DNA of 64,000 bases, taken from positions 1 through 64,000 of the forward strand of contig QIBA01000039.1 in NCBI GenBank assembly GCA_003225175.1, read 5' to 3'. The translations under genes and the position numbers were made by a program. The DNA comes from Acidobacteriota bacterium. GTDB lineage: Bacteria > Acidobacteriota > Terriglobia > Terriglobales > Acidobacteriaceae. Each line of letters starts with the position of its first letter. Position 1 is the stretch's first letter. Shown here piece by piece: positions 5,888-19,474 of the stretch. The notes below the pieces were generated by a model. The model saw only the letters and a program-made list of their open reading frames with translations. It had not been told where the DNA came from and searched no databases.

Positions 5888-7009
5888 TCAAGTCCCGATC
5901 TCCAACATCCGATCCAACGCAACTCTGGACCAGTACTTTACATGGTCAGCCACGCGAATGCGATTGACCACGTTGCCATCCACAAGGTTTTCCAGCGCCC
6001 ACGCGAGGTGCTGCGGCGAAATTCGGAACATCGTCGTGCACAGACATCCCAAATCGTCAAGTGTGATGACTTTCTTTCTCTGCTCTGCGAAGCGCTTGCC
6101 CATGCGGTTGACAAGGTGAATTTCTGTTCCAACTGCAAACATCGTTCCTGCGGGGGCGTCTTCGATGATCTTAATCAGGCGCTCAGTGGAGCCGAGCTGA
6201 TCCGCCTTCTGGCAGACTTCCCAGCGGCACTCAGGATGCACAATCACCTGAATTCCCGGATATTTCGCGCGCACATTGTCGACGTGCTCCGGTAGAAAAC
6301 GCTGATGTACCGAGCAATGTCCTTTCCAGAGAATCACTTTGGCCGCGCGCAGACGATCCGGTGTCAGTCCGCCATTGATCATGTACGGATCCCACACCAC
6401 CATCTCCGAAAGTGGCACTCCGAGCTTGTAAGCTGTGTTGCGTCCGAGATGCTGATCGGGAAGAAAAAGAATTTTGGGGGATTTCGCGTAGGCCCATTTG
6501 AATGCAGCGCCTGCATTCGAGGAGGTGCAAACCAGCCCGCCGCGTTCGCCTACAAAGGCTTTAATGGCCGCGGCGGAGTTCATGTATGTCAGCGGAGTAA
6601 TGCCGCTGCCGTCCCTCCCAACCACTCCGAATCTCTCCAGCTGCTCCCAGCAGTCTTCTACCTGGCCGATTTCAGCCATGTCAGCCATCGAGCACCCTGC
6701 ATTGAGGTCCGGCAGAATCACCTGCTGATCAGATCGCGCGAGGATATCTGCGCTTTCCGCCATGAAATGCACGCCGCAAAAGACGATGTAACGTCCATCC
6801 GTCTGCGCGGAAATCTTGGAAAGCTTGTAAGAATCCCCAGTGTAATCGGCAAAGCGGATCACTTCATCGCGCTGATAGTGGTGTCCAAGAATGAAGCAGT
6901 CGCGACCGAGCTCGCGACGAGCCTCGGCGATGCGGTCATCCATCGTATGATCGGGGAGGACGAGATAATTATCCAGCGAGCATAAAGCTCGGTCGGCAAC
7001 GGCAGTCAT
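5888..7009 (-). CDS. nadA: Quinolinate synthase NadA
   Basis: NadA condenses iminoaspartate with dihydroxyacetone phosphate to quinolinate in de novo NAD synthesis, using a [4Fe-4S] cluster. Seen: the family motifs in order, FILGHHYQRDEVI near the start, SAQTDGRYIVFCGVHFMAES (first cluster Cys), LPDLNAGCSMADM, VCTSSNAGA (second Cys), ILFLPDQHLGRNTA, HPECRWEV, and TEIHLVNRM ... DLGCLCTTMF (third Cys). I place the start at the ATG at 7009 (MTAVADRALCSLDNY), about 373 residues, near the family length. The GTG at 7132 would add 41 residues encoded by an inverted repeat (GTAGGTG 7104-7110 / CACCTAC 7130-7136) that look non-native. No nadB or nadC is in view. Confidence 0.95.
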   Translation of the reverse strand: MTAVADRALCSLDNYLVLPDHTMDDRIAEARRELGRDCFILGHHYQRDEVIRFADYTGDSYKLSKISAQTDGRYIVFCGVHFMAESADILARSDQQVILPDLNAGCSMADMAEIGQVEDCWEQLERFGVVGRDGSGITPLTYMNSAAAIKAFVGERGGLVCTSSNAGAAFKWAYAKSPKILFLPDQHLGRNTAYKLGVPLSEMVVWDPYMINGGLTPDRLRAAKVILWKGHCSVHQRFLPEHVDNVRAKYPGIQVIVHPECRWEVCQKADQLGSTERLIKIIEDAPAGTMFAVGTEIHLVNRMGKRFAEQRKKVITLDDLGCLCTTMFRISPQHLAWALENLVDGNVVNRIRVADHVKYWSRVALDRMLEIGT

Positions 7010-7132
7010 CAAGTTTCCGCCTTCAGTCTCGACACAACTACCGACCAAAAATTCGGCGACGTTGCTCGAAACGGGGATGTTGAAAGCAATCCGCCGGCTC
7101 CAGTAGGTGCGCTGCGCAGTTTCACGCCCCAC

Positions 7133-7483: not shown

Positions 7484-9427
7484 ATGCCACAAAAGACTGC
7501 GAAAAATCCCGAACTCACCTTCTTTTTGGGCAAAGGAGGTGTCGGGAAAACTACCGTCAGCACCGCATATGCCCTTCATGCGAGCGCTAAGCGACAGAGG
7601 AGTGTGGTGCTCATCTCAACCGATCCGGCGCACTCTCTCGGCGATGTGCTCGATCTAAAGCTGAAGCCGGGAATGCAGACAGTGCGTGGCGTACCCCGCG
7701 GCAAGCTCTCGGTTTGGCAAGTGGATGCCGGGGCTCGGTTTCAAGAATTCCTCGATGAATACCGCGACGCGATCACGAATCTGGTTGAGCAAGGAACCTT
7801 TCTTTCAAAAACAGAAATTGATTCGTTTCTTGAAACAACTCTGCCGGGACTTGCGGAAGTAAGTGCGCTGCTTACAATTGCCGACCTCCTGGAAAGCGCC
7901 AAGTTCGATGAGATTGTGGTTGATACGGCGCCTATCGGGCACACGCTTCAGCTGTTTCGCATCCCCACACAGCTCGCGCGCTTCCTGGAATTTCTGGAGC
8001 TCTCAGGTAAGCGCGACGAAGTCTTGGCTCAGCATTTCGGCGGAAGCACCACTCTAAGACGGCCCAAAGTCCTCGATAAATGGGACGACGTACTGACTTC
8101 TCTTCGAGCTGCGCTGTCGTCAAAGCAATCGAAATTGGTGATGGTCAGCAGCGCAGAAATGTTTTCGCTCGAAGAAGCTTCACGAACTGCTCGCCTGCTG
8201 AAACACGACTTGCGTGCAGAGATCGAGGAAGTGGTGCTGAATCGTGTCGTAACCCGCGCTCGAAGTTGCAAACGTTGCCACAAACGTGTGCAGGAGTATG
8301 CAGCCGCGTTGAAATTCGTGAAGAGCCGATTCCCAAATGCGGACATCCTTACAGGAGAAGACCCAGGTGCGCCGCTCATTGGCGCTCAAAACCTGGGACT
8401 CTTTGGCGAGCACGTCTTCGCTGACAAGCCTCTCCGGCTCAAGATGTCTCGACCGAAGCGCACAACTCCGGTGAAGTTTGAAGCTGCGAAGTGGCCAGTG
8501 ACTAAGACGCAGCTCACACTCACAGTCGGAAAGGGCGGAGTGGGAAAAACCACGATTTCCGGAGGCCTCGCTTATGCCCGCCGCGAGCGGCATCCGCGCG
8601 AGAACCTCTTAATTTGCTCCACCGATCCCGCTCCATCGCTCGACGACTTGTTTGGACAGAAAGTTGGGGCTGAGGCAAAGCCGGTCTTGAACGATAAGCA
8701 CTTCGCTGCCGTGGAAATCGACTCGCCCGCTGAATTCCTGGCTTGGAGTAAAAAGGTTAAGGGAATCATCTCGCAATCGCTCGAGATGGAGCGAGGTGGA
8801 CTGCACGTTCAGCTGTCGTTTGAACATGAAATGATCTCGACGTTGCTCGACATCGTGCCTCCAGGAGTAGACGAGATTTTTGCAGTTTTCAAGCTGCTCG
8901 ACTTTGTCGAGACACGCAACCTAGCGCTTGTGATCGACATGGCGCCCACCGGCCATGCGCTCGAGTTGTTGCGCACGCCTGAGCGGCTGGTCGTGTGGGC
9001 GCGCCTGCTGTTGAAAAGCCTTGCTCGGCACCGTACACTGCCGCTGGCGCAGGATCTGGCAGTGGAAGTCGCGTCGATCTCGCAACGCGCGAGAGAGCTT
9101 ACGGCTCTGCTAAAGAATAAAAAGAGCGCCAACGTTTTTGTGGTCATGCTTCCGGAGCCGCTGCCTGATCGCCAGACCGAACGCTTGCTTGAGAGTTTGC
9201 GCGAGCTGAAGCTCACGCCCACGGCTGTGTTCGTGAATCGGATTCTTACAGAGAAAGAATCGCGAAATTGTCCGCGTTGTGAGTTGACACGCCGTTGGCA
9301 GCTTGCGACTGTATCGCGTCCACGTGCTGATAATCTCGTGCATTATGGAGTCCCCAACTTCGCTGGCCAGATTTCTGAGCTTTCCGGGCTGAAAAAACTG
9401 ACGAAACGACTGTGGCAAATACACTGA
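7484..9427 (+). CDS. Double-domain Get3/ArsA-type ATPase at the head of the gas-vesicle island
   Basis: A 647-residue cytoplasmic protein made of two similar halves (about 10-310 and 340-645). Seen: each half has a deviant Walker A GKGGVGKTT (16-24 and 349-357), STDPAHSLGD / STDPAPSLDD, and a switch-like VVDTAPIGHTLQLFR / VIDMAPTGHALELLR. Each half also has a CxxC pair (C262/C265 and C596/C599). Known: in Get3-type targeting ATPases a CxxC pair from each subunit holds zinc at the dimer interface. ArsA arsenite pumps are also two fused halves but sit with arsB/arsD/arsR genes, none of which is here. Inference: a covalently joined Get3-like dimer that chaperones hydrophobic Gvp proteins. The next gene, a gvpF/L, starts inside its 3' end (16-base overlap), so expression is coupled. 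Confidence 0.85.
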   Translation: MPQKTAKNPELTFFLGKGGVGKTTVSTAYALHASAKRQRSVVLISTDPAHSLGDVLDLKLKPGMQTVRGVPRGKLSVWQVDAGARFQEFLDEYRDAITNLVEQGTFLSKTEIDSFLETTLPGLAEVSALLTIADLLESAKFDEIVVDTAPIGHTLQLFRIPTQLARFLEFLELSGKRDEVLAQHFGGSTTLRRPKVLDKWDDVLTSLRAALSSKQSKLVMVSSAEMFSLEEASRTARLLKHDLRAEIEEVVLNRVVTRARSCKRCHKRVQEYAAALKFVKSRFPNADILTGEDPGAPLIGAQNLGLFGEHVFADKPLRLKMSRPKRTTPVKFEAAKWPVTKTQLTLTVGKGGVGKTTISGGLAYARRERHPRENLLICSTDPAPSLDDLFGQKVGAEAKPVLNDKHFAAVEIDSPAEFLAWSKKVKGIISQSLEMERGGLHVQLSFEHEMISTLLDIVPPGVDEIFAVFKLLDFVETRNLALVIDMAPTGHALELLRTPERLVVWARLLLKSLARHRTLPLAQDLAVEVASISQRARELTALLKNKKSANVFVVMLPEPLPDRQTERLLESLRELKLTPTAVFVNRILTEKESRNCPRCELTRRWQLATVSRPRADNLVHYGVPNFAGQISELSGLKKLTKRLWQIH

Positions 9428-10158
9428 AATCGAAATCGCGAGCGAACAGCGCCCGCTTGCTGTACCTCTATGGCATTAGCGCAAAAAATCCGAAGGTGAA
9501 GATCACGGGGTCGATTCATGGAATCGCTGCGGTCGAAACCCTCGAAGACTCGGGGCTGACAGCCTGGTTAAGCCGCGTTCCCGAAACGGAGTTCGGAGAA
9601 AAGTTGGCTGCCCATATGGAGGATCTCGAATGGCTGGCAGGCGCAAGCGTACGTCATCAGCGCACGGTTTCTCAAATCTCCGAATCCGTCACGCTGCTGC
9701 CGGCCCGTTTCGGTACCATCTTCAAAAATGAACAATCGTTGCTGGAACACGTGCGGGCCGAAAAGGACAAACTCACCGCGACGCTTCTACGCATTGAAGG
9801 CACAGAAGAATGGGGTGTGAAGCTGTTTCTGAATCCGTTGCCTCCGGCGTCTCCGATTGAAACTACTTCCGGGCACGATTACTTGCGAGCCAAAGCCATG
9901 GTTCAAGTCAAGAAGCGCACGGAACTCGATCCAGACGTTGTTGAATTCGCGCGCGAGCTGCAGGCGATCGCGGCGGATTCAGCTCCTGCCGGCAAAGTCA
10001 GCTCAGGCCAAAGCAATCTCGAGTGGCAGGCCTCATTCCTGGTTCGAAAGAAAGATCGCCCGAAATGGGACAGCATGCTGAAGCGATACGCCACCCGGTG
10101 GGCGGATCGCCGCGAAATCCAATGTTCGGGGCCTTGGCCGCCGTATTCATTTGTGTGA
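9412..10158 (+). CDS. Gas vesicle protein GvpF/GvpL family (first copy)
   Basis: A 248-residue protein with GTG start overlapping the ATPase gene by 16 bases, so translation is probably coupled. Seen: N-terminal LLYLYGISA, central LEWLAGASVRHQRTVSQI and LLPARFGTIF (the first ferredoxin-like subdomain), EEWGVKLFLN, and the C-terminal GPWPPYSFV that is diagnostic of GvpF/L. Known: GvpF/L proteins are accessory factors that contact GvpA during early gas-vesicle assembly and may sit at the growing end. F and L cannot be told apart safely from sequence. One of three copies in the island. Confidence 0.9.
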   Translation: MANTLKSKSRANSARLLYLYGISAKNPKVKITGSIHGIAAVETLEDSGLTAWLSRVPETEFGEKLAAHMEDLEWLAGASVRHQRTVSQISESVTLLPARFGTIFKNEQSLLEHVRAEKDKLTATLLRIEGTEEWGVKLFLNPLPPASPIETTSGHDYLRAKAMVQVKKRTELDPDVVEFARELQAIAADSAPAGKVSSGQSNLEWQASFLVRKKDRPKWDSMLKRYATRWADRREIQCSGPWPPYSFV

Positions 10159-10446
10159 CGCCTTGGAAGGCGTTCTGTTCGGCAGTATGATGACGAATCA
10201 TGGGTCAAGGAATAAAAGGTTGTCGTCCAGGTCGCAAGAACCGGCGAAAGTTGAGGAGATAGGGGCAACCGGCCTGGATTTCCGCCGCCTGCGCAGCGAG
10301 ATTATTCCTGTGGACTTGGGTGTTGGCTTCGCATGTCGAGCAAATTAAGGCAGGTATTCGCGAAGCTGAGGCGGGCAAACTGGTCCGACGTGTCAAGGTA
10401 AAGTTTGCTATAGCCAAGTGGTTCCACCGCAACTGAGTGATTGTGG
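10158..10446 (+). other. Intergenic stretch with small hairpin and a possible antitoxin-like fragment
   Basis: Seen: directly after the gvpF/L stop, a short hairpin ACGCC-TTGGAA-GGCGT (10158-10173) followed by TCTGTT, a weak terminator candidate. At about 10335-10434 a + strand frame without its own start reads HVEQIKAGIREAEAGKLV and ends at a stop. It recalls the C-terminal part of small CopG/ParD-like antitoxins and may be a gene remnant, but this is only a resemblance. The rest shows nothing recognisable. Confidence 0.3.
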
Positions 10447-10677
10447 ATGACAACTGTCAACAAAGCCGAAGTAATTCTCGAGCCTGCCCGCTCCGCTGAA
10501 GACGAAGCTTCCCTGCTCGACATCCTTGATCATGTCCTGAACGCTGGCATCGTCCTGCACGGGAGTCTGGTGATCTCGGTGGCCGGAGTCGATCTCGTTT
10601 TCTTAGGATTGAATGCAATCCTTACCTCTGTCGAAACCGCGATGAAGCACATTGAGCAGCATTCCGTCTCCTCCTGA
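10447..10677 (+). CDS. Small gas-vesicle GvpA-family protein, GvpS/GvpM-like
   Basis: About 76 residues from the ATG at 10447 (a TTG two codons earlier is also in frame). Seen: the GvpA-type core LLDILDHVLNAGIVLHGSLV, ISVAGVDLVFLGLNAI and LTSVETAMKH. The sequence VxxAGVDLVxLGL, rather than the VSLVGIELxxIEAR of structural GvpA, points to the minor GvpA-like group called GvpS or GvpM. Known: these small GvpA relatives are needed in low amounts, perhaps for nucleation or tip caps. Six bases downstream begins the next gvpF/L-like gene. Confidence 0.8.
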   Translation: MTTVNKAEVILEPARSAEDEASLLDILDHVLNAGIVLHGSLVISVAGVDLVFLGLNAILTSVETAMKHIEQHSVSS

Positions 10678-10683
10678 GCTCGG

Positions 10684-11331
10684 ATGCCAGTACTTCCCTA
10701 CTGTATTGTGCTTCGCGATTCTGGTATTTCGACTCCCAAAACAGGAGTTTTGAATTCCGGCATTCATCAAATGAGTGAGGGTAATCTGCGGGGACTGTAC
10801 TCCGAGCTTTTGAGAAGCGAGATCTCACCAAGAATCTTTCAGCAAGCAGCCCTGGAATTCCACAAAGTCGTACATGCAGTCTTTGACGAAACAGCCGTGG
10901 TGCCGTTTCGCTTCCCTACCTGGCTGACACCAGCAGAACTCAGCAGGCATTTACAACAGGAGTCGCAGCGCTATACGACATTTCTCAATAACCATGCCAA
11001 GCACACGCAAATGGAAGTTCGCCTCACATCGTCCACCACTTCACCAACAAACGCTATAAGCGGCACAGCGCACTTGCGGGCCCGAGCAGCTGAGTCCTGG
11101 CAATTACGCAACACAGCAGAAGAGTTGAAGAACCTACTCTCATCGGAGGTGATCGAATGGCGCGAGCGCGACACTTCACAAGGAATGCGTCTCTACGCAC
11201 TCATTGACCGAGCTAACGTCACCTCTTTCCGTGAGAGACTGGGCAAGCGCGAGCACGACACTAGCCTACGTTGGAGCGGGCCTTGGCCGGCAACGGAATT
11301 CCTGGAAGCTCCGCGGAGATCTGAACCCTGA
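10684..11331 (+). CDS. Divergent gas vesicle protein GvpF/GvpL family (second copy)
   Basis: A 215-residue protein starting MPVLPYCIVLRDSG, six bases after the GvpS/M-like gene. Seen: GvpF/L layout with HKVVHAVFDETAVVPFRFPTWL in place of the usual LPARFGT segment, a helical middle (LRARAAESWQLRNTAEELKNLL), and the C-terminal LRWSGPWPATEFLEA with the family GPWP signature. It is shorter and more divergent than the two other copies, so it may play a separate role, for example GvpL to their GvpF. The downstream gvpK may start right at its stop codon. Confidence 0.8.
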   Translation: MPVLPYCIVLRDSGISTPKTGVLNSGIHQMSEGNLRGLYSELLRSEISPRIFQQAALEFHKVVHAVFDETAVVPFRFPTWLTPAELSRHLQQESQRYTTFLNNHAKHTQMEVRLTSSTTSPTNAISGTAHLRARAAESWQLRNTAEELKNLLSSEVIEWRERDTSQGMRLYALIDRANVTSFRERLGKREHDTSLRWSGPWPATEFLEAPRRSEP

Positions 11332-11363
11332 GCGACGAACCCAAGAAGATCGCTCCCGATGAC

Positions 11364-11699
11364 ATGGAACAGGCCATCGAAAGCCTCAACCAGGAACTGG
11401 CGTCGATTGCCGGTGGAACTACGCAGCGTCTCGACTGCAATTCCGAAAACATCGAGCAAGGGCTCGCACGCCTGGTGCTCAGTCTCATCGAGCTCCTTCG
11501 CAAACTTCTCGAGCGTCAAGCCATTCGCCGCATGGAAGGCGGCAGTTTAGCCGACTCTCAGATCGAAGAAATGGGACTCGCGTTGATGAAGCTCGAGCAG
11601 AAGATCCGCGAACTCGCGGACCATTTCGGTCTTAGGCCAGAGGATTTGAATCTCGATCTAGGACCGCTAGGCCACTTGTGGACTGACGAAAAAAAGTAA
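11364..11699 (+). CDS. gvpK: Gas vesicle protein GvpK
   Basis: A 111-residue helical protein. Seen: IEQGLARLVLSLIELLRKLL, ERQAIRRMEGGSLADSQIEE, MGLALMKLEQKIRELADHFG and then LRPEDLNLDLGPLGHLW, which is the defining GvpK end. Known: GvpK is an essential accessory protein in many gas-vesicle clusters. The ATG at 11364 gives a family-typical length. The same frame stays open back to a CTG at 11328 that overlaps the TGA of the gvpF/L gene, adding LSDEPKKIAPDD. Either start is possible, and the second would couple translation. Confidence 0.95.
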   Translation: MEQAIESLNQELASIAGGTTQRLDCNSENIEQGLARLVLSLIELLRKLLERQAIRRMEGGSLADSQIEEMGLALMKLEQKIRELADHFGLRPEDLNLDLGPLGHLWTDEKK

Positions 11700-11991
11700 A
11701 AACGCTGTGTCGCATGGCCAAGGGGGTCGCCTCTATAGCCGCTGACTCACAGCCGAGGGCGGCTGTGCCACCAGCTTAAGAAAAACGACAATTGGAGCAA
11801 GATCATGGATTCGCGGGTCCCTACGTCGGGCAGTTTCGTGGCCATCTTCCAGCATCGCGGCCAAAGGCACCTGTGTTGGCAACGTCCAACCGTTCTAGTA
11901 CCTGAGTGATGTTCTCGGGCAGGCCGATGCTGCATAACATCCTTTAGGCGATTCTCTGTCCTTCCCCAGAATGCGCCATTCGGAGAGGTCA
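11700..11991 (+). other. Intergenic stretch before the OmpA-family gene
   Basis: About 290 bases. It contains a GC-rich inverted pair (AGCCGC near 11738 / GCGGCT near 11759) that might end the first gvp transcript. No gene or clear promoter could be identified. The GGAGAGG ribosome site of the following gene lies at its right edge. Confidence 0.35.
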
Positions 11992-13587
11992 ATGAAACCA
12001 CTCGTTCATCTTGCCCTGGCAGCTTCTCTCAGCTTTACGGCTGCCGCTCAAAGTTCATCTTCACAGGCTTCATCGCCAGGTAAGACTTCCGTTGCTCACC
12101 AGATGAAGGCGATCAACTACCGAAATGCTTCGTCCTCGAAAGTCGACATGCAGGGCACTTCGCTCATGCCTTCGGCCAACGGCGATGCGCAGGTTAAGAG
12201 CCGAAGTGGACGTGTGGAAGTAGAACTCAAGATGGCTGGCCTTGAGCCCGCCAACAAGTTCGGCATGGAGTACCTGACGTATGTCTTGTGGGCAATCAGT
12301 CCTCAGGGTCGAGCTGTAAACCTTGGTGAACTGGTGCTCAGCCACGGACAAGCCCAGGTGAAAGCCACCACGGAATTGCAGACTTTCGGCCTCGTCGTGA
12401 CCGCCGAGCCGTACTTTGCTGTCACCCAGCCGGGAAGTCTCGTAATCTCGGAAAACGTGCTGCGCTCCGACACCGCCGGCATGGAGCAGCAGATCCAGTT
12501 CAGTTATCAGCTGTTAGGACGCGACGCGTATAGGTCAAGCAATGCGCGCATTGAGAATGCGATCTTCGGAATCGATCCGCGCACTCCGCTTGAGCTGTTT
12601 GAGGCACGCAACGCCGTTCGAATTGCTCGCAACGCGAATGCTGACAAATACGCAGCCAGTGCTCTCGCCAATGCTGAAAAATCATTGGCGAATGCCGAGA
12701 CGGCATATCGCAACAAGCAGAAATCTTCGGTTGCAACATACGCTCGCGACGCGGCGCAAACGGCGGAAGATGGGCGCGTGATGTCGCTCAAGAAGCAGGA
12801 AGAAGAGCGCCTGGCGCGTGAAGCGCAAGAACGCGAAGCCCAAGCTCGCGCTCAAGCGGCGGCGGAAGCCCAGCGTCGTCAGCAGGCAGAAGAGGATCGC
12901 GCCACGGCAGAAGCAACGCGAGGCGAAGCCGAGCGCATGCGCAAGGAAGCGGAATTAGCAGCGCAGCAGGCCCAACAGGCCAAGGCTCAGGCTGAACAAG
13001 CCAAGGCAGAGGCGGAAGCCGCCCGCCAGGCCGCACTGGCGCAACAGCAGCAGTTAGCAGCGGAAGCCGACAAGTCCCGTGCCGCTGCCCAAGAAGCCGA
13101 TCGCCTGCGCCAGCAGGCAGAAAAAGACAAGGCTGAACTTCGCGCCCGTCTTCTCCAGCAGCTCAATGCGGTACTTGAGACGCACGATAGTGCCCGCGGT
13201 CTGATCGCAAACATGGGCGACGTGCTGTTTCAAACTGGCAAATACGAACTGAAGCCCGAAGCCCGTGAGCGACTCGCCAAGGTCTCCGGCATCCTGCTGG
13301 CCTATTCGAGCCTGAAGGTTGCGATCGAGGGACACACTGACGCTGTCGGAACCGACGATTACAATCAACGGCTCTCCGAACAGCGTGCAGAAGCTGTACG
13401 TAATTACTTTGTAAATCAAGGTGTGGCTGCAACGTCGGTCACGGCACGAGGATTTGGAAAAATGCAGCCTATCGCCGGCAACGATACCCCTGAGGGCCGC
13501 CAACGCAATCGTCGCGTGGAACTGGTACTTTCGGGGGATGCGATCGGAACGGACGTAGCGACAGCAACTTCGCCGCGCGGTCAATGA
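11992..13587 (+). CDS. OmpA-family envelope protein with long Ala/Glu/Gln coiled coil
   Basis: I take the ATG at 11992, preceded by GGAGAGG, giving 531 residues with a clear signal peptide (MKPLVHLALAASLSFTAAAQ). Seen: a beta-rich N-terminal domain (about 30-170), a very long alanine/glutamate/glutamine-rich coiled coil (about 200-395), and a C-terminal OmpA peptidoglycan-binding domain (VLFQTGKYELKPEARERL, IEGHTDAVGTDDYNQRLSEQ, RGFGKMQPIAGNDTPEGRQR-NRRVE). Known: the OmpA domain ties the outer membrane or periplasmic structures to the cell wall. Its location between gvpK and gvpJ on the same strand is odd for an envelope protein. It may be an insertion or help position the cell under buoyant load; that link is inference. 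Confidence 0.85.
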   Translation: MKPLVHLALAASLSFTAAAQSSSSQASSPGKTSVAHQMKAINYRNASSSKVDMQGTSLMPSANGDAQVKSRSGRVEVELKMAGLEPANKFGMEYLTYVLWAISPQGRAVNLGELVLSHGQAQVKATTELQTFGLVVTAEPYFAVTQPGSLVISENVLRSDTAGMEQQIQFSYQLLGRDAYRSSNARIENAIFGIDPRTPLELFEARNAVRIARNANADKYAASALANAEKSLANAETAYRNKQKSSVATYARDAAQTAEDGRVMSLKKQEEERLAREAQEREAQARAQAAAEAQRRQQAEEDRATAEATRGEAERMRKEAELAAQQAQQAKAQAEQAKAEAEAARQAALAQQQQLAAEADKSRAAAQEADRLRQQAEKDKAELRARLLQQLNAVLETHDSARGLIANMGDVLFQTGKYELKPEARERLAKVSGILLAYSSLKVAIEGHTDAVGTDDYNQRLSEQRAEAVRNYFVNQGVAATSVTARGFGKMQPIAGNDTPEGRQRNRRVELVLSGDAIGTDVATATSPRGQ

Positions 13588-13919
13588 GCTCCGCGCGTCA
13601 ATAAACAGTCCAAATCCATAATGCGGTCTTGTCTGTGCAAAATGAGTACGGTACGCATCTAGCGAACAAGCTGAAAGTCTCAGCCCGGGCCGCACTGCCG
13701 GGCTGAAATTTCTACACAGAGGCAACTCCGCCTCTTCAAGCCGCATCGAATTTATGAATCTGTCTAGGTACTTCCCTGCGGATGCTTCCCCCCACCCGTT
13801 CTGGTGTCGTTTCCGCTGATTTATTTTTGTTTACAGGGCTCGCAGCCTTGGCTGAATGGTGCTGTTTTCTGTACAGTGAGCAGTTCGTGTTTTAGCGTAT
13901 TCAGTGTAGAGAGAGGCGG
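13588..13919 (+). other. Intergenic stretch with hairpin, upstream of gvpJ
   Basis: About 330 bases between the OmpA-family gene and gvpJ. Seen: a perfect 8-base stem CAGCCCGG (13681-13688) / CCGGGCTG (13698-13705) with a 9-base loop, followed by AAATTTCT. It could stop transcription from the OmpA gene. A promoter for the gvpJ-gvpA-kinase group should lie between there and 13919, but I see no clear -35/-10 pair. Confidence 0.4.
13681..13711 (+). terminator. Possible terminator hairpin after the OmpA-family gene
   Basis: Stem CAGCCCGG / CCGGGCTG with a 9-base loop, then AAATTTCT. The uridine tract is poor, so Rho-independent termination is only possible, not certain. Confidence 0.4.
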
Positions 13920-14267
13920 ATGGATCGCGCACCTACAGTATCCGGCACTACAAACCTTATAGACATCCTGGATCGAATCCTCGACAAGGGTCTGGTGATC
14001 GCCGGAGATATCCGGGTATCGCTGGCCAATGTTGAACTGTTGACTATCCGCATTCGGCTCCTGATCTGCTCCGTCGATAAAGCCGAGCAGATCGGGATGA
14101 ATTGGTGGAAGTTCGATCCAAACCTTACACGTCAGATGCCGGACACAAGGCCGCGTAGTCTGCCGGCGGCACAAAGACGCAGCGTTGCTTCTGCGTTGGG
14201 GGGAAGGCCGCGACGGTCAGCGACTCCTCCAGTTACGCGGCCCAAACCAGGATCGCGACAGAGATAG
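13920..14267 (+). CDS. gvpJ: Gas vesicle protein GvpJ-like
   Basis: A 115-residue GvpA-family protein; GAGAGAGGCGG precedes the ATG. Seen: TNLIDILDRILDKGLVIAGD, IRVSLANVELLTIRIRLLIC and SVDKAEQIGMNWWKFDPNL. The combination VIAGDIRVSLANVELLTIxIRLL and DWW/NWW-type end is typical of GvpJ rather than GvpA (which has VIDAWVRVSLVGIEL). A basic, proline-rich tail of about 35 residues follows. Known: GvpJ is a minor GvpA relative needed for vesicle initiation. It is 45 bases upstream of gvpA on the same strand. Confidence 0.85.
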   Translation: MDRAPTVSGTTNLIDILDRILDKGLVIAGDIRVSLANVELLTIRIRLLICSVDKAEQIGMNWWKFDPNLTRQMPDTRPRSLPAAQRRSVASALGGRPRRSATPPVTRPKPGSRQR

Positions 14268-14312
14268 AGCAAATGAAACAGGAAATCATGGAGAAATTGA
14301 GGAGGGGCCCAG

Positions 14313-14636
14313 ATGGCTGTTGAGAGAGTATCCGGCGGATCAAGCCTGATAGATGTTCTTGATCGCGTGCTCGACAAGGGCATGGTCATTGACGCATGGG
14401 TGCGGATCTCCCTGGTCGGGATTGATCTCATTACCGTTGAAGCCCGCGTTGTGGTGGCTTCCATTGAGACTTACCTGCGATACGCCGATGCAGTCGGACT
14501 GATGCCTACCATCAGCCGTCCGAAATTGGCAAGTGGTGAGGAAGGATTACCGGGCGAAGAGGAAGAAGGCGAGGAGCTAGTGCCGGTTCCACGTCCTCGT
14601 CCTCGCAGGACCAAAAAAGGCGGAGGTCGGCGGTAA
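14313..14636 (+). CDS. gvpA: Major gas vesicle structural protein GvpA with charged C-terminal tail
   Basis: A 107-residue protein; GAGGAGGGG lies just before the ATG. Seen: an almost canonical GvpA core, [40 protein letters not shown] and [14 protein letters not shown]. Known: GvpA forms the ribbed wall of the gas vesicle as a helix-strand-strand-helix unit. Odd: after the core comes a tail of roughly 40 residues, first glutamate-rich ([15 protein letters not shown]) and then arginine/lysine/proline-rich ([15 protein letters not shown]). Compact GvpA proteins end soon after the core, so the tail is unusual and would face outwards or be trimmed. The sensor kinase gene follows after 24 bases. 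Confidence 0.92.
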
Positions 14637-14660
14637 GCCCAGACGCCCCCAGGGATCCTA

Positions 14661-16799
14661 ATGGCAACGCCTGAACTTCGTCTGCTGAAGCCAGAGCCGG
14701 CCAAACGCCGCGTTCGAGTTACGTCACGACGCACCCCGACGGCCTTAAGACTGCTCCAGGCCGAGCGCTCTGAGGAAGTCTATCCGATCCTGCTCGAGGA
14801 GATCGTTGACCTTGGCTTCCAACGCACATTCATCGTTGCTGTCGATTTCGAAACTGGCGAGGTCCTCCCCTCAGCCTCACTGAACTGCTCCAAGAATTAT
14901 CTAGACCGGTTTCGCAGTTCGCTATTTGCGGCTGGAAATCCGGTTGTTGATGTGCTGCATTCGCAGAGACCGAGCGTGGTACGAGACTCCTCCCTTCACC
15001 ACCGCTCGCTCTACTGTCACCCAATTCTCTACAACAATACGACCGTCTGCTGGGAAGCAGAGCGGGAACGACGAGCAGAATGCCTGGCTGTAGACAACAG
15101 TGCGCGCCGCCGCAAGATGAGTCTCGAAAGCCAGGTATGCGGCACCTGCAGCATGCGCGCCTATGCCGCACTAGTTGGGGTTGAGCTTCCCACAAAAAGC
15201 ACACCAGAACTGGTGCCCCTTAGCAATTTGATCGAGATGGCGAATCGCTATCTCTCTCGACTCTTCAAGGTCGAGCACTACTACAACCGGATGACGGACA
15301 TGGACGTGACCATCGCCCAATTGCAAACCGTCATGCAATCCATGAGCGATCCGGTTATCCTGACGGACAATCATTACCGGGTTATCGTTCAAAATCGGGC
15401 CGCCGAACGCTTCTTTAAAGTCCCTGATAGCACCGTCGCGGAAGGCCTCACCGAAGGCTTGGCGCGAGCTGTCGAGATGAATAATCTGCTCTTCTCCGCA
15501 GCACTATCTTCAGTAGCCGTTTCCGGCGTAGAAGCCTCACGCGATCTCACGTTGATCGATGCCATCGAAGGCGAAGAGATGCTCTTTGAGGCCGTCTGCA
15601 CCCCAACATTTACCCGAGACGGCATGCCTCTAGGCATGGTTACGGTGATGCGCGATGTCACCGATCTCCGCCGGGCTGACCAGGAATTGCGTACGAACTA
15701 CGAGAAGCTGCGTGCGGCTGAGGAAGTAGTCCGTCAGGATCGCGACCGTCTGAACGTAATCATTGAAAGCGTCGGTGATCCCATTGTGGTATGCGACGGA
15801 TCGGCAAAAGTCGTGCTTCTCGATCCGCTTGCGCAAAATTTGTTTGGTATTAGCGAGAAGGAGACGCTGTCCGATACCGTTCGTGTCAAAAATCAGGCGC
15901 AACTTGACGCATACGTGACTGCCTTCACCTTTGGCTTTGCCGATAAAGAAAGTGGCACTCTTAAGCTCACCGATCCCGATACGAAGCAGGAGATCGAGTA
16001 CGACACACGTTCCGGCAAGATTTATGACGAGCGAGGACAAGTAGCTTTCACGGTCACGGTTTTGCGGGATCTGACAGCGCTGCGGCGTGTCGAGCAGCTG
16101 AGAGTTGAGCGTCGCATGCTGGAGATCGAAAAATTTGCTGCCGCCGGACGCCTGGCTGCAACTATCGCCCATGAGGTGAACAATCCCATGGAGGCGATCA
16201 AGAACGCCATCTATCTGCTTTCCGATTCGGTGAAAGCCGATGCGCAACCAATCTATGACATTCTGAAGTCCGAGACCGAGCGCGTCGCCCGCATCGTTCG
16301 GCAGATGCTCGGTCTCTATCGAAACAACGAGCAGGTCAAGCCGGTCAACATCAATCTGCTCGTAGAAGACACCCTTCTGTTGTTGAATCGGCAGCTCCAG
16401 CGAAACAACATCGAGGTTAAGACCAAGCTGCGCGAGTTGCCCGCTGCAGTCGTGGCCGCTGATCAGCTGCGCCAAGTCCTCTCAAACCTGGTGATTAATG
16501 CGAAGGACAGCATGCCTGACGCCGGCAGCTTACAAATACGCACGCGCCATGTGCATCACAGCAAAGAGTATCCCTTGGGAAGTATTCGCCTTCTGGTGGC
16601 AGATACTGGAAGCGGAATTCCGCCAGAATTGCGAAAGACCATTTTCGAGCCTTTCGTGACGACAAAAGGTGAAAAGGGCACAGGACTCGGATTGTGGATT
16701 GTTCGCGGTATCATCGGCAACCATGGGGGCAAGATTTCTTTAAAAAGTAAGGTTGGCAGGGGTACGGTCTTCAAGATCGAATTGCCCGCGGTGAGGTAA
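14661..16799 (+). CDS. PAS histidine kinase with cysteine-rich N-terminal sensor domain, in the gvp island
   Basis: A 712-residue soluble kinase with no membrane segments. Seen: an N-terminal GAF-like region (about 35-180) carrying six cysteines, C76, C119, C130, C141 and the pair C160/C163 (VCGTCSMRA), plus H120. A first PAS domain (about 205-325: MQSMSDPVILTDNHYRVIVQ) and a second (about 350-465: IIESVGDPIVVCDGSAKVVL) follow. Then come a HisKA domain with H504 in AATIAHEVNNPMEAI, and an ATPase domain (LRQVLSNLVINAKDSMP, DTGSGIPPELR, GEKGTGLGLWIVRG). Inference: a cytoplasmic redox, metal or gas sensor that signals to the response regulator at 16967. It sits 24 bases after gvpA, so it is probably expressed with the vesicle genes and may control them. 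Confidence 0.9.
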   Translation: MATPELRLLKPEPAKRRVRVTSRRTPTALRLLQAERSEEVYPILLEEIVDLGFQRTFIVAVDFETGEVLPSASLNCSKNYLDRFRSSLFAAGNPVVDVLHSQRPSVVRDSSLHHRSLYCHPILYNNTTVCWEAERERRAECLAVDNSARRRKMSLESQVCGTCSMRAYAALVGVELPTKSTPELVPLSNLIEMANRYLSRLFKVEHYYNRMTDMDVTIAQLQTVMQSMSDPVILTDNHYRVIVQNRAAERFFKVPDSTVAEGLTEGLARAVEMNNLLFSAALSSVAVSGVEASRDLTLIDAIEGEEMLFEAVCTPTFTRDGMPLGMVTVMRDVTDLRRADQELRTNYEKLRAAEEVVRQDRDRLNVIIESVGDPIVVCDGSAKVVLLDPLAQNLFGISEKETLSDTVRVKNQAQLDAYVTAFTFGFADKESGTLKLTDPDTKQEIEYDTRSGKIYDERGQVAFTVTVLRDLTALRRVEQLRVERRMLEIEKFAAAGRLAATIAHEVNNPMEAIKNAIYLLSDSVKADAQPIYDILKSETERVARIVRQMLGLYRNNEQVKPVNINLLVEDTLLLLNRQLQRNNIEVKTKLRELPAAVVAADQLRQVLSNLVINAKDSMPDAGSLQIRTRHVHHSKEYPLGSIRLLVADTGSGIPPELRKTIFEPFVTTKGEKGTGLGLWIVRGIIGNHGGKISLKSKVGRGTVFKIELPAVR

Positions 16800-16966
16800 G
16801 CACTTGCTCATCACCGGGACACAGCACGGAGAAAATCCGTTAGAGCAGGCGGATCGGCGGGGCCACAAACATGGCTGTTAATGAGAAATGTGTCAGGATT
16901 CAGAAAAGCCAAACCGGCGCCTCTCTCCATGTCTCAATCTCCGTGGTGAAAAGGGTTTTGCCTTAG

Positions 16967-17467
16967 ATGTCCTCCGACCAGAAATTCTCGATTTTGGTTG
17001 TGGATGATGAGCGCGCAGTGCTCACTACCTACGGCCTTATTTTGTCGCGCAAGGGATACGATGTAGAGACTGCAATCTCATCAGCGGAAGCCTTGCAGGC
17101 GTTGAATCGCCGGGATTTCGATCTCCTACTCTGCGATTACTCGCTGGAGCAAGAGCACACCGGATTTGAGGTCATCGATTACGGCCGCAAAAAGAAGCCG
17201 AACACGAAGGCCGCGATCCTTACCGGATATGCAAGCAAGGAGACAGCCGAGCAGGCACGTAAAGATGGGATTGCCATTCTATACAAGCCGATAGACATCG
17301 AAGAATTCTTTACAACAATCGATAAACTTTTGAGAGAAAAGTATGAGTCCCTCGAAAACAGCGAAGAAGAAAGCGGGCACAGGCACGGCGCGGCCGAAGA
17401 AGGAAGCCGCAAGGAAGGAAGTACACAGCCTGCAACCGGTCGACGTCCCCGCAGTCGCGCAATTTAA
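16967..17467 (+). CDS. Receiver-only response regulator, overlapping the third gvpF/L gene
   Basis: A 166-residue CheY-like protein. Seen: acidic pocket VVDDE (12-15), phosphoacceptor D57 in LLLCDYSLEQ, the LTGYAS switch threonine and IAILYKPIDI with the conserved lysine. After about residue 125 the sequence becomes low-complexity (EESGHRHGAAEEGSRKEG), with no DNA-binding domain. That last part overlaps the start of the next gvpF/L gene by 125 bases in another frame. Likely partner of the upstream Cys-rich kinase. Output is probably through protein contact, since no effector domain is present. Confidence 0.88.
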   Translation: MSSDQKFSILVVDDERAVLTTYGLILSRKGYDVETAISSAEALQALNRRDFDLLLCDYSLEQEHTGFEVIDYGRKKKPNTKAAILTGYASKETAEQARKDGIAILYKPIDIEEFFTTIDKLLREKYESLENSEEESGHRHGAAEEGSRKEGSTQPATGRRPRSRAI

Positions 17468-18251
17468 CGGCCAGCCCCAATCACAGCAGCAAGAGGGCCG
17501 CTATGTGTACGGAGTGATCGAAGCACGCGACAACGTCAGCTTCGGCAAGATCGGCATTGGTGGCATGGGCGAGAACGTGTATTCAGTCCACCACGGCGAC
17601 GTCGCCGCAGTCGTAAGCAAAACCCCAGTTTTCATCTTCGATCCCACACGCGAAAATGCCCTCGCCCACGAGCATGTGATCGAAACGGTGATGAAGACGA
17701 ACACCATCATCCCGATGAGCTTCGGCACGGTCTTCCGCACGGACGACGACATCCGCGAGGTGCTCAAGAGCATTTATCCATCCCTCAAAGATGTGCTCAA
17801 GCAGATGGCCAACAAGCTGGAATTTGGGCTCAAGGTGACCTGGGATCGCGATCGTATCGTCGAAGAGCTAAAGCGTGAGAATGAAGAGATTCATCGCTTC
17901 CAGCACGAACTCACGCGCAAGCACCTGCAATCCACCTACTTCGCCCGCATGCAGCTCGGACGCATGATTGACAAGGCACTCTCCGAGCGCGCGGCTGAGG
18001 TCGTCCGCGAGATTTACGACGGACTTCGAACTGTATGTGTGGCGTCGCGTGACAACAAGGTCATTGGCGACAAGATGATCATGAATGCCGCCTTCCTCAT
18101 CCAAAAAGATAAGGAATCCGAATTCGATGCCGCCGTAAATGCAGTGGCGCAAAAATTCGGCGATCGCTTGAACTTCAAATATACCGGCCCATGGCCTCCG
18201 TATAACTTCGTGAACATACGATTGAAGCTGGAGAGAGGAACGGCAAGCTAA
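17343..18251 (+). CDS. Gas vesicle protein GvpF/GvpL family with basic N-terminal tail (third copy)
   Basis: A 302-residue protein. Seen: the core starts near residue 53 (GRYVYGVIEARDNVSFGKIG) and shows VYSVHHGDVAAVVSKTPVFI, HEHVIETVMKTNTIIPMSFG-TVF, LEFGLKVTWDR and the terminal KYTGPWPPYNFVNI of GvpF. In front is a Lys/Ala/Arg-rich tail (MSPSKTAKKKAGTGTARPKK). The ATG at 17343 lies inside the response-regulator gene (frame +1, 125-base overlap). No later start is available before the core, so this start looks real. The coupling suggests the regulator and GvpF are made together. gvpG follows after 4 bases. Confidence 0.92.
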   Translation: MSPSKTAKKKAGTGTARPKKEAARKEVHSLQPVDVPAVAQFNGQPQSQQQEGRYVYGVIEARDNVSFGKIGIGGMGENVYSVHHGDVAAVVSKTPVFIFDPTRENALAHEHVIETVMKTNTIIPMSFGTVFRTDDDIREVLKSIYPSLKDVLKQMANKLEFGLKVTWDRDRIVEELKRENEEIHRFQHELTRKHLQSTYFARMQLGRMIDKALSERAAEVVREIYDGLRTVCVASRDNKVIGDKMIMNAAFLIQKDKESEFDAAVNAVAQKFGDRLNFKYTGPWPPYNFVNIRLKLERGTAS

Positions 18252-18255
18252 CGAC

Positions 18256-18603
18256 GTGCTATTCATCGACGACCTTCTCGCTCTCCCGATCACCGGCTTC
18301 AAGTCGATTCTCCGGACATTAGCCAAAGTGGCTGAGGAGCAGTACACCGATGACGCTCCTATTAAAGAACGTCTACTGCATCTTCAGGTAGAACTCGAGG
18401 AGGCCAAGATCACCGAAGATGAATACGTCAAGCAGGAGGCGGAGATTCTGCGCGAGTTGCGCGAGATTCAAAATCGCAAGCGCGAACTGGCGGGTTTACC
18501 TCCGGAGGAAGCGAGTGGCTTTACCGGGAAGGTGAAAGAGGGTTCCAGAGTGGAACTCACGTGGGATCCGAATTCCGATGAGAACGTCGGCCCGGGAAGA
18601 TAG
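18256..18603 (+). CDS. gvpG: Gas vesicle protein GvpG
   Basis: A 115-residue protein, GTG start 4 bases after gvpF/L. Seen: MLFIDDLLALPITGFKSIL, then a helical segment (LRTLAKVAEEQYTDDAPIKE-RLLHLQVELEE) and EDEYVKQEAEILRELREIQN, the standard GvpG layout. Known: GvpG is a small accessory protein usually next to gvpF, as here. A Gly/charged tail (GFTGKVKEGSRVELTWDPNS) is added. It is the last gene of the island and meets the RES toxin gene tail-to-tail. Confidence 0.92.
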   Translation: MLFIDDLLALPITGFKSILRTLAKVAEEQYTDDAPIKERLLHLQVELEEAKITEDEYVKQEAEILRELREIQNRKRELAGLPPEEASGFTGKVKEGSRVELTWDPNSDENVGPGR

Positions 18604-18620
18604 CTCCCCAGCTATTTCTT
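18598..18620. terminator. Hairpin between the convergent gvpG and RES genes
   Basis: AGATAGCT (18598-18605), CCCC loop, AGCTATTT (18610-18617), pairing over eight positions with one G-U, then CTT. The gvpG stop codon is inside the left arm. It may terminate from both sides; the stem is AU-rich and the call is tentative. Confidence 0.4.
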
Positions 18621-19058
18621 GATCCTCATCTCAAATGGATACTCGTAAGCAGAATCAATCCTTATTCGCGCCGCGTCCGGATGCAGCGGGTTCAGCAATA
18701 CATTCGAAGTTGCTGGCACCAGTGCGCTCGGCACCAGCAGCAGGGCGGAACGTTGCGATCTCAGCCACTCGGAGCCGATCTCGCGCGTCTCGTCCACATG
18801 ATTAATCCAATCCTTGCGTAGTGCTTTTCCATCAAAAATCTCGGTACGGATTTGATCATCGATGCGCACCGAAAGCAGCGTGTACTTTGGAGGAAAATCA
18901 TTTGCGCTGGTGTGCACGCAGGCTTCGAGCAGGGCGCCAGCGGGAGTTTCAGCAAGATACACAATGGGAGAGCCGGCGTTATGCCAGCGTCCGGGAGCAC
19001 GCAAGCCGCCGGTCCCACTTAGCTCCTTGTGCTTACTGATACGCCAGAGCTGGATCAG
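18612..19058 (-). CDS. RES-domain toxin (NAD-degrading family)
   Basis: Seen: QLWRISKHKELSGTGGL followed by RAPGRWHNAGSPIVYLAETP, AGALLEACVH and a C-terminal LLLVPSALVP, the R-E-S residues that name the family. Known: RES toxins degrade NAD+ and are neutralised by a partner Xre antitoxin. The usual first residues (LWRIS) are encoded only if translation begins upstream of the TTG at 19004. In that frame the best place is a CTG at 19058 that overlaps the TGA of the antitoxin gene (CTGA), giving 148 residues. No ATG, GTG or TTG is available there, so the start is unusual and should be tested. A 130-residue form from 19004 would lack the conserved arginine. Confidence 0.85.
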   Translation of the reverse strand: MIQLWRISKHKELSGTGGLRAPGRWHNAGSPIVYLAETPAGALLEACVHTSANDFPPKYTLLSVRIDDQIRTEIFDGKALRKDWINHVDETREIGSEWLRSQRSALLLVPSALVPATSNVLLNPLHPDAARIRIDSAYEYPFEMRIKK

Positions 19059-19474
19059 ACGAACATACCTTCGTCGATTTGAACGAGCAGTTCCTCCACG
19101 ATGCGGCTGCCCGCATCGGTCTTCAGCAGCTCAAACGGAGAGCGGTTGGCCAACCGCGGATTCGGACGGCGCAGCCACGCCAGCGCTCTCTCCCGCGATC
19201 CGTACAGGCTTTCAGTTTGGGAAAGCACACGCATAAGTCGGAGCAGGCGATCCGACTCTTCTACGGTGAGCTTTTCTCTGCGCGACCGCCGATGTTGGAG
19301 GGTACGCAGGGGAATCACAAGGGCGCCGACTTCGGAGCGAGTAACCCCAAGCGTGAGCAAGCGGTTGATTGCGGAGGCAGGAAGCTGACGCTCGATAAGA
19401 TTGAGTACATCCTGTTCCGATTCGGGAGGTCGAACGCCTAACCATTCCCCAAGCTGCTGATGAAGAGCAGTCAT
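19055..19474 (-). CDS. Xre/MbcA/ParS-type antitoxin (DUF2384)
   Basis: A 139-residue protein. Seen: a helical N-terminal part (LNLIERQLPASAINRLLTLG-VTRSEVGALVIPLRTLQHRR) that fits the Xre-like helix-turn-helix of this family, then LMRVLSQTESLYGSRERALA, and the C-terminal toxin-binding domain NPRLANRSPFELLKTDAGSR-IVEELLVQIDEG. Known: these proteins bind and block RES toxins and repress their own promoter. It is upstream of the toxin and overlaps it, the standard order for this pair. Confidence 0.88.
   Translation of the reverse strand: MTALHQQLGEWLGVRPPESEQDVLNLIERQLPASAINRLLTLGVTRSEVGALVIPLRTLQHRRSRREKLTVEESDRLLRLMRVLSQTESLYGSRERALAWLRRPNPRLANRSPFELLKTDAGSRIVEELLVQIDEGMFV

Follow-up and report, generated by a model that had tools for sequence, protein, structure and literature searches.

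Closest described gas vesicle clusters

The literature mostly presents gas vesicles as organelles of aquatic microbes and counts GvpN among the genes shared by their clusters. The acidobacterium Ellin345 carries an operon combining a gene for a two-domain ArsA homologue with genes for two GvpL/F proteins, GvpJ, GvpK and GvpM, and such ArsA proteins were proposed to energise a step of vesicle assembly (PMC2963123, Castillo and Saier 2010; statements on published papers refer throughout to the portions considered here). This ArsA-gvp pairing in an acidobacterium, in print since 2010, partly foreshadows the locus described here, a gas vesicle island at positions 7484-18603 (+ strand) of the window, i.e., the whole analysed stretch of 64,000 nucleotides (contig QIBA01000039.1, assembly GCA_003225175.1, Acidobacteriaceae). 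The island is under purifying selection, belongs to an ordered module recurring in three phyla, and probably represents a functional gas vesicle locus of a type free of GvpN and GvpO. The Ellin345 gene list is likewise without GvpN and GvpO; in the considered portion, the account holds no comment on either protein, and no kinase, receiver, GvpA, GvpG, Gemmatimonadota or Chloroflexota (PMC2963123). No account of a GvpN/GvpO-free module with a kinase was found in the openly licensed literature, and a subscription paper may exist; a further article (PMC10215811), as far as its considered part goes, concerns another bacterium.

The Streptomyces-type cluster gvpOAFG-JLSK (PMC9501494; NZ_CP108735) resembles the island in lacking GvpN, in its A, F/L, G, J, S and K genes and in belonging to soil bacteria, but possesses GvpO (according to the table in PMC9501494), only two F/L genes, and neither ArsA nor a kinase in the annotated stretch. 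The cluster of Serratia sp. ATCC 39006 shares with the island three GvpF genes, three GvpA-family genes and dedicated regulators, but contains GvpN, GvpV and GvpC, and its regulators GvrA-C are set beside those of the island by description only (PMC4982088). An ArsA-family ATPase adjoins GvpF/L genes also in the plasmid-borne cluster of Nostoc sphaeroides (NZ_CP031945), which differs by GvpC, GvpN, two gvpA genes and the absence of an annotated kinase in that stretch. Within the source family, five GvpN-bearing clusters (L055, L057, L168-L170) share ArsA, F, G, K, J and M- or A-type genes with the island, but in another order, the gvpK genes of L055 and L057 falling into another supported clade. 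GvpN is described as conserved in all clusters by a review whose own table shows Streptomyces without gvpN, and is therefore not taken here as defining a gvp cluster; the same review calls GvpC conserved and GvpO haloarchaea-specific (PMC9501494). The GvpO profile nonetheless matched in some bacteria. No island protein matched a GvpC-type Pfam profile; no genome-wide GvpC search was made.

Gene content of the island

The sequence-only reading had placed nine gas-vesicle-type genes on the + strand here, with genes for an OmpA-family protein, a histidine kinase and a response regulator among them, and Pfam matches bear out this entire inventory. In order, the island encodes an ArsA-type ATPase, GvpF/L-1, GvpM/S, GvpF/L-2, GvpK, OmpA, GvpJ, GvpA, the kinase, the receiver, GvpF/L-3 and GvpG. 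All gas vesicle assignments exceed the Pfam cut-offs: GvpF/L-1 (9412..10158; PF06386, 131 bits vs 23.6), a small GvpM/S-type protein of the GvpA family (10447..10677; 76 amino acids; PF00741, 50 bits vs 25; top NCBIfam match GvpM, under its cut-off), a divergent GvpF/L-2 (10684..11331; PF06386, 67 bits vs 23.6), GvpK (11364..11699; PF05121, 118 bits vs 25), GvpJ (13920..14267; PF00741, 63 bits vs 25; alignment of 62 rows), the main shell protein GvpA (14313..14636; PF00741, 61 bits vs 25), GvpF/L-3 (17343..18251; PF06386, 257 bits vs 23.6; 55-57 % identity to eight relatives) and GvpG (18256..18603; PF05120, 53 bits vs 30.6). GvpA additionally exceeds the cut-off of the GvpA subfamily (PRK09371, 112 bits vs 100), the remaining Gvp proteins staying below the stricter NCBIfam cut-offs; Pfam separates neither GvpF from GvpL nor GvpJ from GvpM. 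Since its called open reading frame (ORF) overlaps that of the response regulator by 125 bases, the start of GvpF/L-3 is uncertain, with the conserved part beginning at about 17493. Counterparts of the F, L, G, J, K and M proteins essential in Halobacterium (PMC9501494) are all present in the island as Pfam matches over cut-off.

GvpN and GvpO in the source genome and its family

In line with the sequence-only reading, which saw neither gene in the island, profile searches of the source genome (5,732,271 bases, 268 contigs, 98.92 % complete) yielded no GvpN match over the family cut-off (best 34 bits vs 266.8) and no GvpO match at E-values up to 10. The searches are able to detect both proteins, since among 23 gvpK-bearing Acidobacteriota genomes (of 396; source genome counted) they found GvpN in nine and GvpO over cut-off in three. 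GvpN was lacking in the other 14 of these 23, one of which (G170) may merely have it unassembled, because its contig ends beside a gvpK that groups with that of a GvpN-bearing locus. In the source family Acidobacteriaceae, gvpK was detected in 48 of 300 genomes (47 over cut-off; source genome counted), and of these 47 only seven contained GvpN (40 without) and one GvpO. Restricting the samples to genomes of ≥90 % completeness and ≤5 % contamination left GvpN lacking in 13/19 (Acidobacteriota) and 24/30 (family). The gap need not be an artefact of draft assemblies, since a family genome assembled in a single contig (G499; 5,650,368 bases, 100 % complete) harbours the whole module (L162), with no GvpN and no GvpO found. 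The GvpN-free form is the common form in the source family, and the "unusual make-up" ascribed to the island at first sight is not supported.

The GvpK tree (84 rows, 88 columns) is too short for deep order and was used for near placements only; it neither showed nor ruled out a single origin of the GvpN-bearing rows. In each of two Acidobacteriota genomes (G266 with L065, G290 with L067), a single contig harbours two GvpN genes, and one of the gvpK genes groups in a distant clade. Another genome, from a member of the source family (G412, which seems identical to G554), has a further gvp stretch of different composition (L149) in addition to the GvpN-free type; it comprises GvpF/L, GvpG, a GvpO match, a GvpM/S-type protein, GvpK and a GvpJ-type protein, all but GvpO named by eye. 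The position of this GvpO match coincides with that of the single one among the 47 family genomes.

Recurrence of the module across phyla

Scanning 84,980 species genomes with the GvpF/L-3 alignment provided 181 confirmed relatives; the 80 highest-ranking ones were retained as loci. These were picked by likeness to GvpF/L-3, so that their lack of GvpN is a property of this module type and cannot be extended to gvp clusters in general. Short contigs are frequent among them, and the samples collected via gvpK carry less bias. Several genomes were sampled more than once (e.g., L069/L160, L091/L163, L084/L166, L072/L171, L054/L117 and, with identical hit place, G412/G554). By record title (sorted by eye), the 80 loci belong to 54 Acidobacteriota, 13 Gemmatimonadota, 12 Chloroflexota and one unidentified organism. 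At least three of the nine module genes are present in 72 loci, the remainder residing on short contigs or showing little but GvpF/L-3. The usual gene order is F3-G-ArsA-F1-M-F2-K-J-A-kinase(-receiver), where individual GvpF copies were named by best score (loose outside the source family). The survey for the same gene order proposed by the sequence-only reading thus recovers the module in three phyla, with the difference that the order in the source family is rotated (ArsA-F1-M-F2-K-J-A-kinase-receiver-F3-G). One locus on 20.7 kb (L071) shows the J-A-kinase-receiver-F3-G half only, ArsA-F1-M-F2-K being absent from the 6.4 kb upstream, and therefore the two halves of the module may part.

GvpN was found in none of the 80 loci and in none of the 79 genomes holding them (profile search), the same search finding it in 9/23 and 7/47 gvpK-bearing genomes as positive controls. 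GvpO was matched in one of 49 tested genomes holding loci; a 50th genome served as positive control and was matched as well. Considering the 52 loci (of the best 80) in which F3, G, K, J and A are all present, a kinase gene lies at most 600 bases after gvpA in 45 (27/34 Acidobacteriota, 10/10 Chloroflexota, 7/7 Gemmatimonadota, 1/1 unidentified), i.e., the kinase beside gvpA, which the sequence-only reading had taken for the island's own regulation, travels with the module. The ATPase was detected in 30/34 complete Acidobacteriota loci (the four others include some possibly cut by a contig end), 3/7 Gemmatimonadota loci, 1/10 Chloroflexota loci and not in the unidentified one. Neither ArsA (searched at the locus) nor GvpN (searched genome-wide) was found for nine Chloroflexota loci (L106, L112, L114, L124, L136-L138, L141 and L144).

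Selection and shell protein

Every frame of the island is open, and comparison with the relative L069 gave ratios of nonsynonymous to synonymous substitution rates (dN/dS) from 0.012 (GvpF/L-3) to 0.174 (GvpF/L-2) for 11 of the 12 genes, OmpA included; the ATPase gene is cut by a contig end in L069, and GvpJ and GvpA were compared over 90/115 and 78/107 codons. Ratios against the farther L071 and L072 are higher (up to 0.32), dS being saturated in several cases. The island is under purifying selection and does not look broken. In L069 (5416-5945), the end of gvpJ and the start of gvpA read unlike the window, for which a misassembly or local break may be responsible.

Most of the GvpA core is conserved (64 aligned rows), and GvpA shares 43 of 68 residues with its solved Anabaena counterpart (8gbs); the C-terminal tail is acidic, then basic.

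Tandem ArsA/Get3-type ATPase

The first gene of the island (7484..9427) encodes a 647-amino-acid ATPase of two halves (PF02374, 294 bits vs 24.3; TIGR00345, 286 bits vs 135; TIGR04291 under its cut-off, 150 bits vs 650), with two GKGGVGKT P-loops and CxxC motifs at 262/265 and 596/599. The exact P-loop sequence is found in 41 (first) and 40 (second) of 43 aligned rows. The fusion of two halves, each with a P-loop, agrees with ArsA and differs from the single-domain homodimer of Get3/TRC40. The AlphaFold2 model (predicted local distance difference test, pLDDT, 89.6) came closest in fold to the ArsA proteins of Leptospirillum and E. coli, followed by Chlamydomonas ArsA1 and Get3. Chlamydomonas ArsA1, likewise of two halves, is also the top sequence match among solved structures, and the CxxC of the second half aligned with the one in a Get3 chain.

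The only cysteines of the ATPase are at 262, 265, 378, 596 and 599. Of the residues which we take to be the metalloid-binding cysteines of E. coli ArsA (113, 172 and 422), the regions around the former two in 1f48 align to Cys-free stretches of the ATPase and that around 422 to a gap. A role in arsenite resistance was rejected, since the metalloid cysteines are lacking and no island gene matched the arsB or arsR families. We read the protein as a fused Get3-like chaperone ATPase, whose cargo would be the shell proteins.

Histidine kinase and receiver

Directly following gvpA, a sensor histidine kinase is encoded (14661..16799) with a GAF-PAS-PAS-HisKA-HATPase architecture, assigned from Pfam, cysteine conservation and a model showing the GAF domain in a GAF fold (pLDDT 88.8). 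The GAF domain carries four cysteines, of which Cys130, Cys160 and Cys163 are kept in 27/27 and Cys141 in 26/27 family kinases (window included; the 28th row, L081, is cut and was left out), making a metal or Fe-S site a reasonable, if tentative, suggestion. A first cysteine pattern was too strict, missing L076 and L078-L080 (one-letter change beside a Cys) as well as the cut L081; a looser pattern matched 25/27 family kinases, missing L081 and L088 (one Cys replaced). In further family loci all ten kinases matched the cysteine pattern, six of them from genomes outside the first set. The adjacent response regulator (16967..17467; PF00072, 66 bits) consists of a receiver domain alone, its stretch LLCDYSLE being common to near relatives; kinase and regulator together display the domains of a two-component system, the regulator lacking a DNA-binding output domain.

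Proposed function and alternatives

In the favoured functional, GvpN- and GvpO-free gas vesicle locus, GvpA would build the shell, GvpJ and GvpM/S would nucleate or extend it, and the three GvpF/L proteins together with GvpG and GvpK may form a chaperone and nucleation platform. The tandem ATPase would drive the holding or hand-over of the very hydrophobic shell proteins at the expense of ATP, much as Get3 does with membrane anchors, rather than arsenite pumping. The kinase adjoining gvpA may sense oxygen or redox state through a GAF domain that binds Fe-S or Zn (in the source family) and switch the locus, its signal presumably being relayed by the receiver without DNA-binding domain. Unless some other protein takes over their enlargement, vesicles formed without GvpN are expected to be small and biconical or short and spindle-shaped.

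That most vesicle clusters need GvpN and GvpO, as the sequence-only reading had put it, goes too far in the case of GvpN: Serratia and Halobacterium deleted for it still produce small bicones (PMC4982088), its loss leaves Haloferax transformants with tiny vesicles (PMC9501494), and Streptomyces clusters exist without gvpN; the statement keeps its ground insofar as the review calls gvpN conserved and GvpO is essential in Halobacterium (PMC9501494). The latter is one of several points that weigh against the proposed function. In Bacillus megaterium, electron microscopy revealed no vesicles in a mutant with a stop in GvpN, even if the same paper considers GvpN necessary for elongation, not for formation (PMC11223475). 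In its fold the ATPase resembles true arsenite ArsA more than Get3, its CxxC motifs are not universal (C262 kept in 35, C265 in 32, C596 in 34 and C599 in 27 of 43 rows), and the protein cannot be a universal assembly step, since it was unseen in 9/10 complete Chloroflexota and 4/7 Gemmatimonadota loci. No kinase accompanies 7/52 complete loci, and several family loci (L086-L095) have no receiver between kinase and GvpF/L-3. Outside the family the looser cysteine pattern was matched by only one of 30 kinases, and therefore the signal perceived there may differ; the one match is from a Chloroflexota locus (L127), whose gvpK is the nearest to those of the source family (support 92/79 in the GvpK tree). 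Finally, dS against L069 is near saturation (0.7-1.7).

It is unlikely that the proteins build a GvpA-type shell or filament for some purpose other than storing gas, or that the locus is silent, but this view has a precedent that also counts against vesicle formation here: the GvpN-free cluster of Streptomyces coelicolor, suspected of the same, for which no vesicles were seen (PMC4982088). Moreover, 30 of the 80 record titles are tagged (by eye) soil-depth, palsa or pasture and two groundwater, the rest being without clear source, and it is doubtful whether buoyancy would be useful in soil. Against this stand the closeness of GvpA to canonical shell proteins and the counterparts, with low dN/dS, of all minor proteins essential in Halobacterium except GvpO. 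If vesicles do form, a MoxR-type ATPase encoded elsewhere in the genome might stand in for GvpN, to which the weak GvpN-profile matches in the source genome could point; we consider this quite improbable, since the best of them (G000:C64) is partial (profile positions 109-202 only) and far below cut-off, weak matches at the same E-value arose in all 14 control genomes (none over cut-off), and no GvpN accompanies the module in the 80 loci (best 80 of 181). The notion that the ArsA/Get3-type ATPase specifically took the place of GvpN draws on its presence in 30/34 complete Acidobacteriota loci, all GvpN-free; it was marked down to very improbable because the ATPase coexists with GvpN in L055, L057, L168-L170 and Nostoc sphaeroides, and was unseen in nine of ten complete Chloroflexota loci, which are GvpN-free as well. 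The missing GvpN and GvpO together with the inserted OmpA gene could also mark the island as a decaying remnant, a view made extremely improbable by the open frames, the dN/dS values of 0.012-0.174 and the much conserved order across phyla.

Returning to the favoured functional locus, a broader generalisation is put forward tentatively, and we would not yet bet on it: the module could represent a second, GvpN/GvpO-free assembly route in at least three phyla, many of its carriers from soil and some without an ATPase at the locus, which in Acidobacteriota would employ a fused Get3-type chaperone ATPase for shell proteins and in the source family an Fe-S GAF kinase as oxygen or redox switch. A conserved and selected module without GvpN and GvpO in three phyla makes a vesicle role outside open water testable, and likewise the least gene set for building a vesicle. 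Acoustic imaging would gain new vesicle clusters from it, and its ATPase and kinase provide a first entry point to the energy supply and switching of such clusters.

OmpA gene and flanking regions

The gene for the OmpA-family protein (11971..13587; PF00691, 88 bits) occupies the gvpK-gvpJ interval in the window and otherwise in just two genomes, both of the window's genus (L069/L160 and L158); further OmpA matches in L109 and L134 lie outside that interval. A membership of OmpA in the gvp system, as implied by the sequence-only reading, was rejected on account of this limited distribution, and we judge the gene to be a genus-level insertion rather than part of the module.

The island lies entirely within a 182 kb contig, and its G+C content (0.54-0.57 in 2 kb steps, vs 0.52-0.58 across the window) displays no composition break. 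A scan of the island for promoters and terminators gave no excess over shuffled sequence (5 vs a mean of 5.3 and 10 vs 13.8, respectively), and no site was found in the first 30 kb of the window with what we take to be the sigma-54-type pattern. Among the matches listed by a search for extra conserved genes around the module, most were shadow ORFs antisense to known genes, and none was taken up. Upstream, the island is flanked by nadA on the opposite strand (5888-7132). Directly 3' of it, a RES-domain toxin-like gene and an Xre/MbcA/ParS antitoxin-like partner are located on the - strand (18612-19474).

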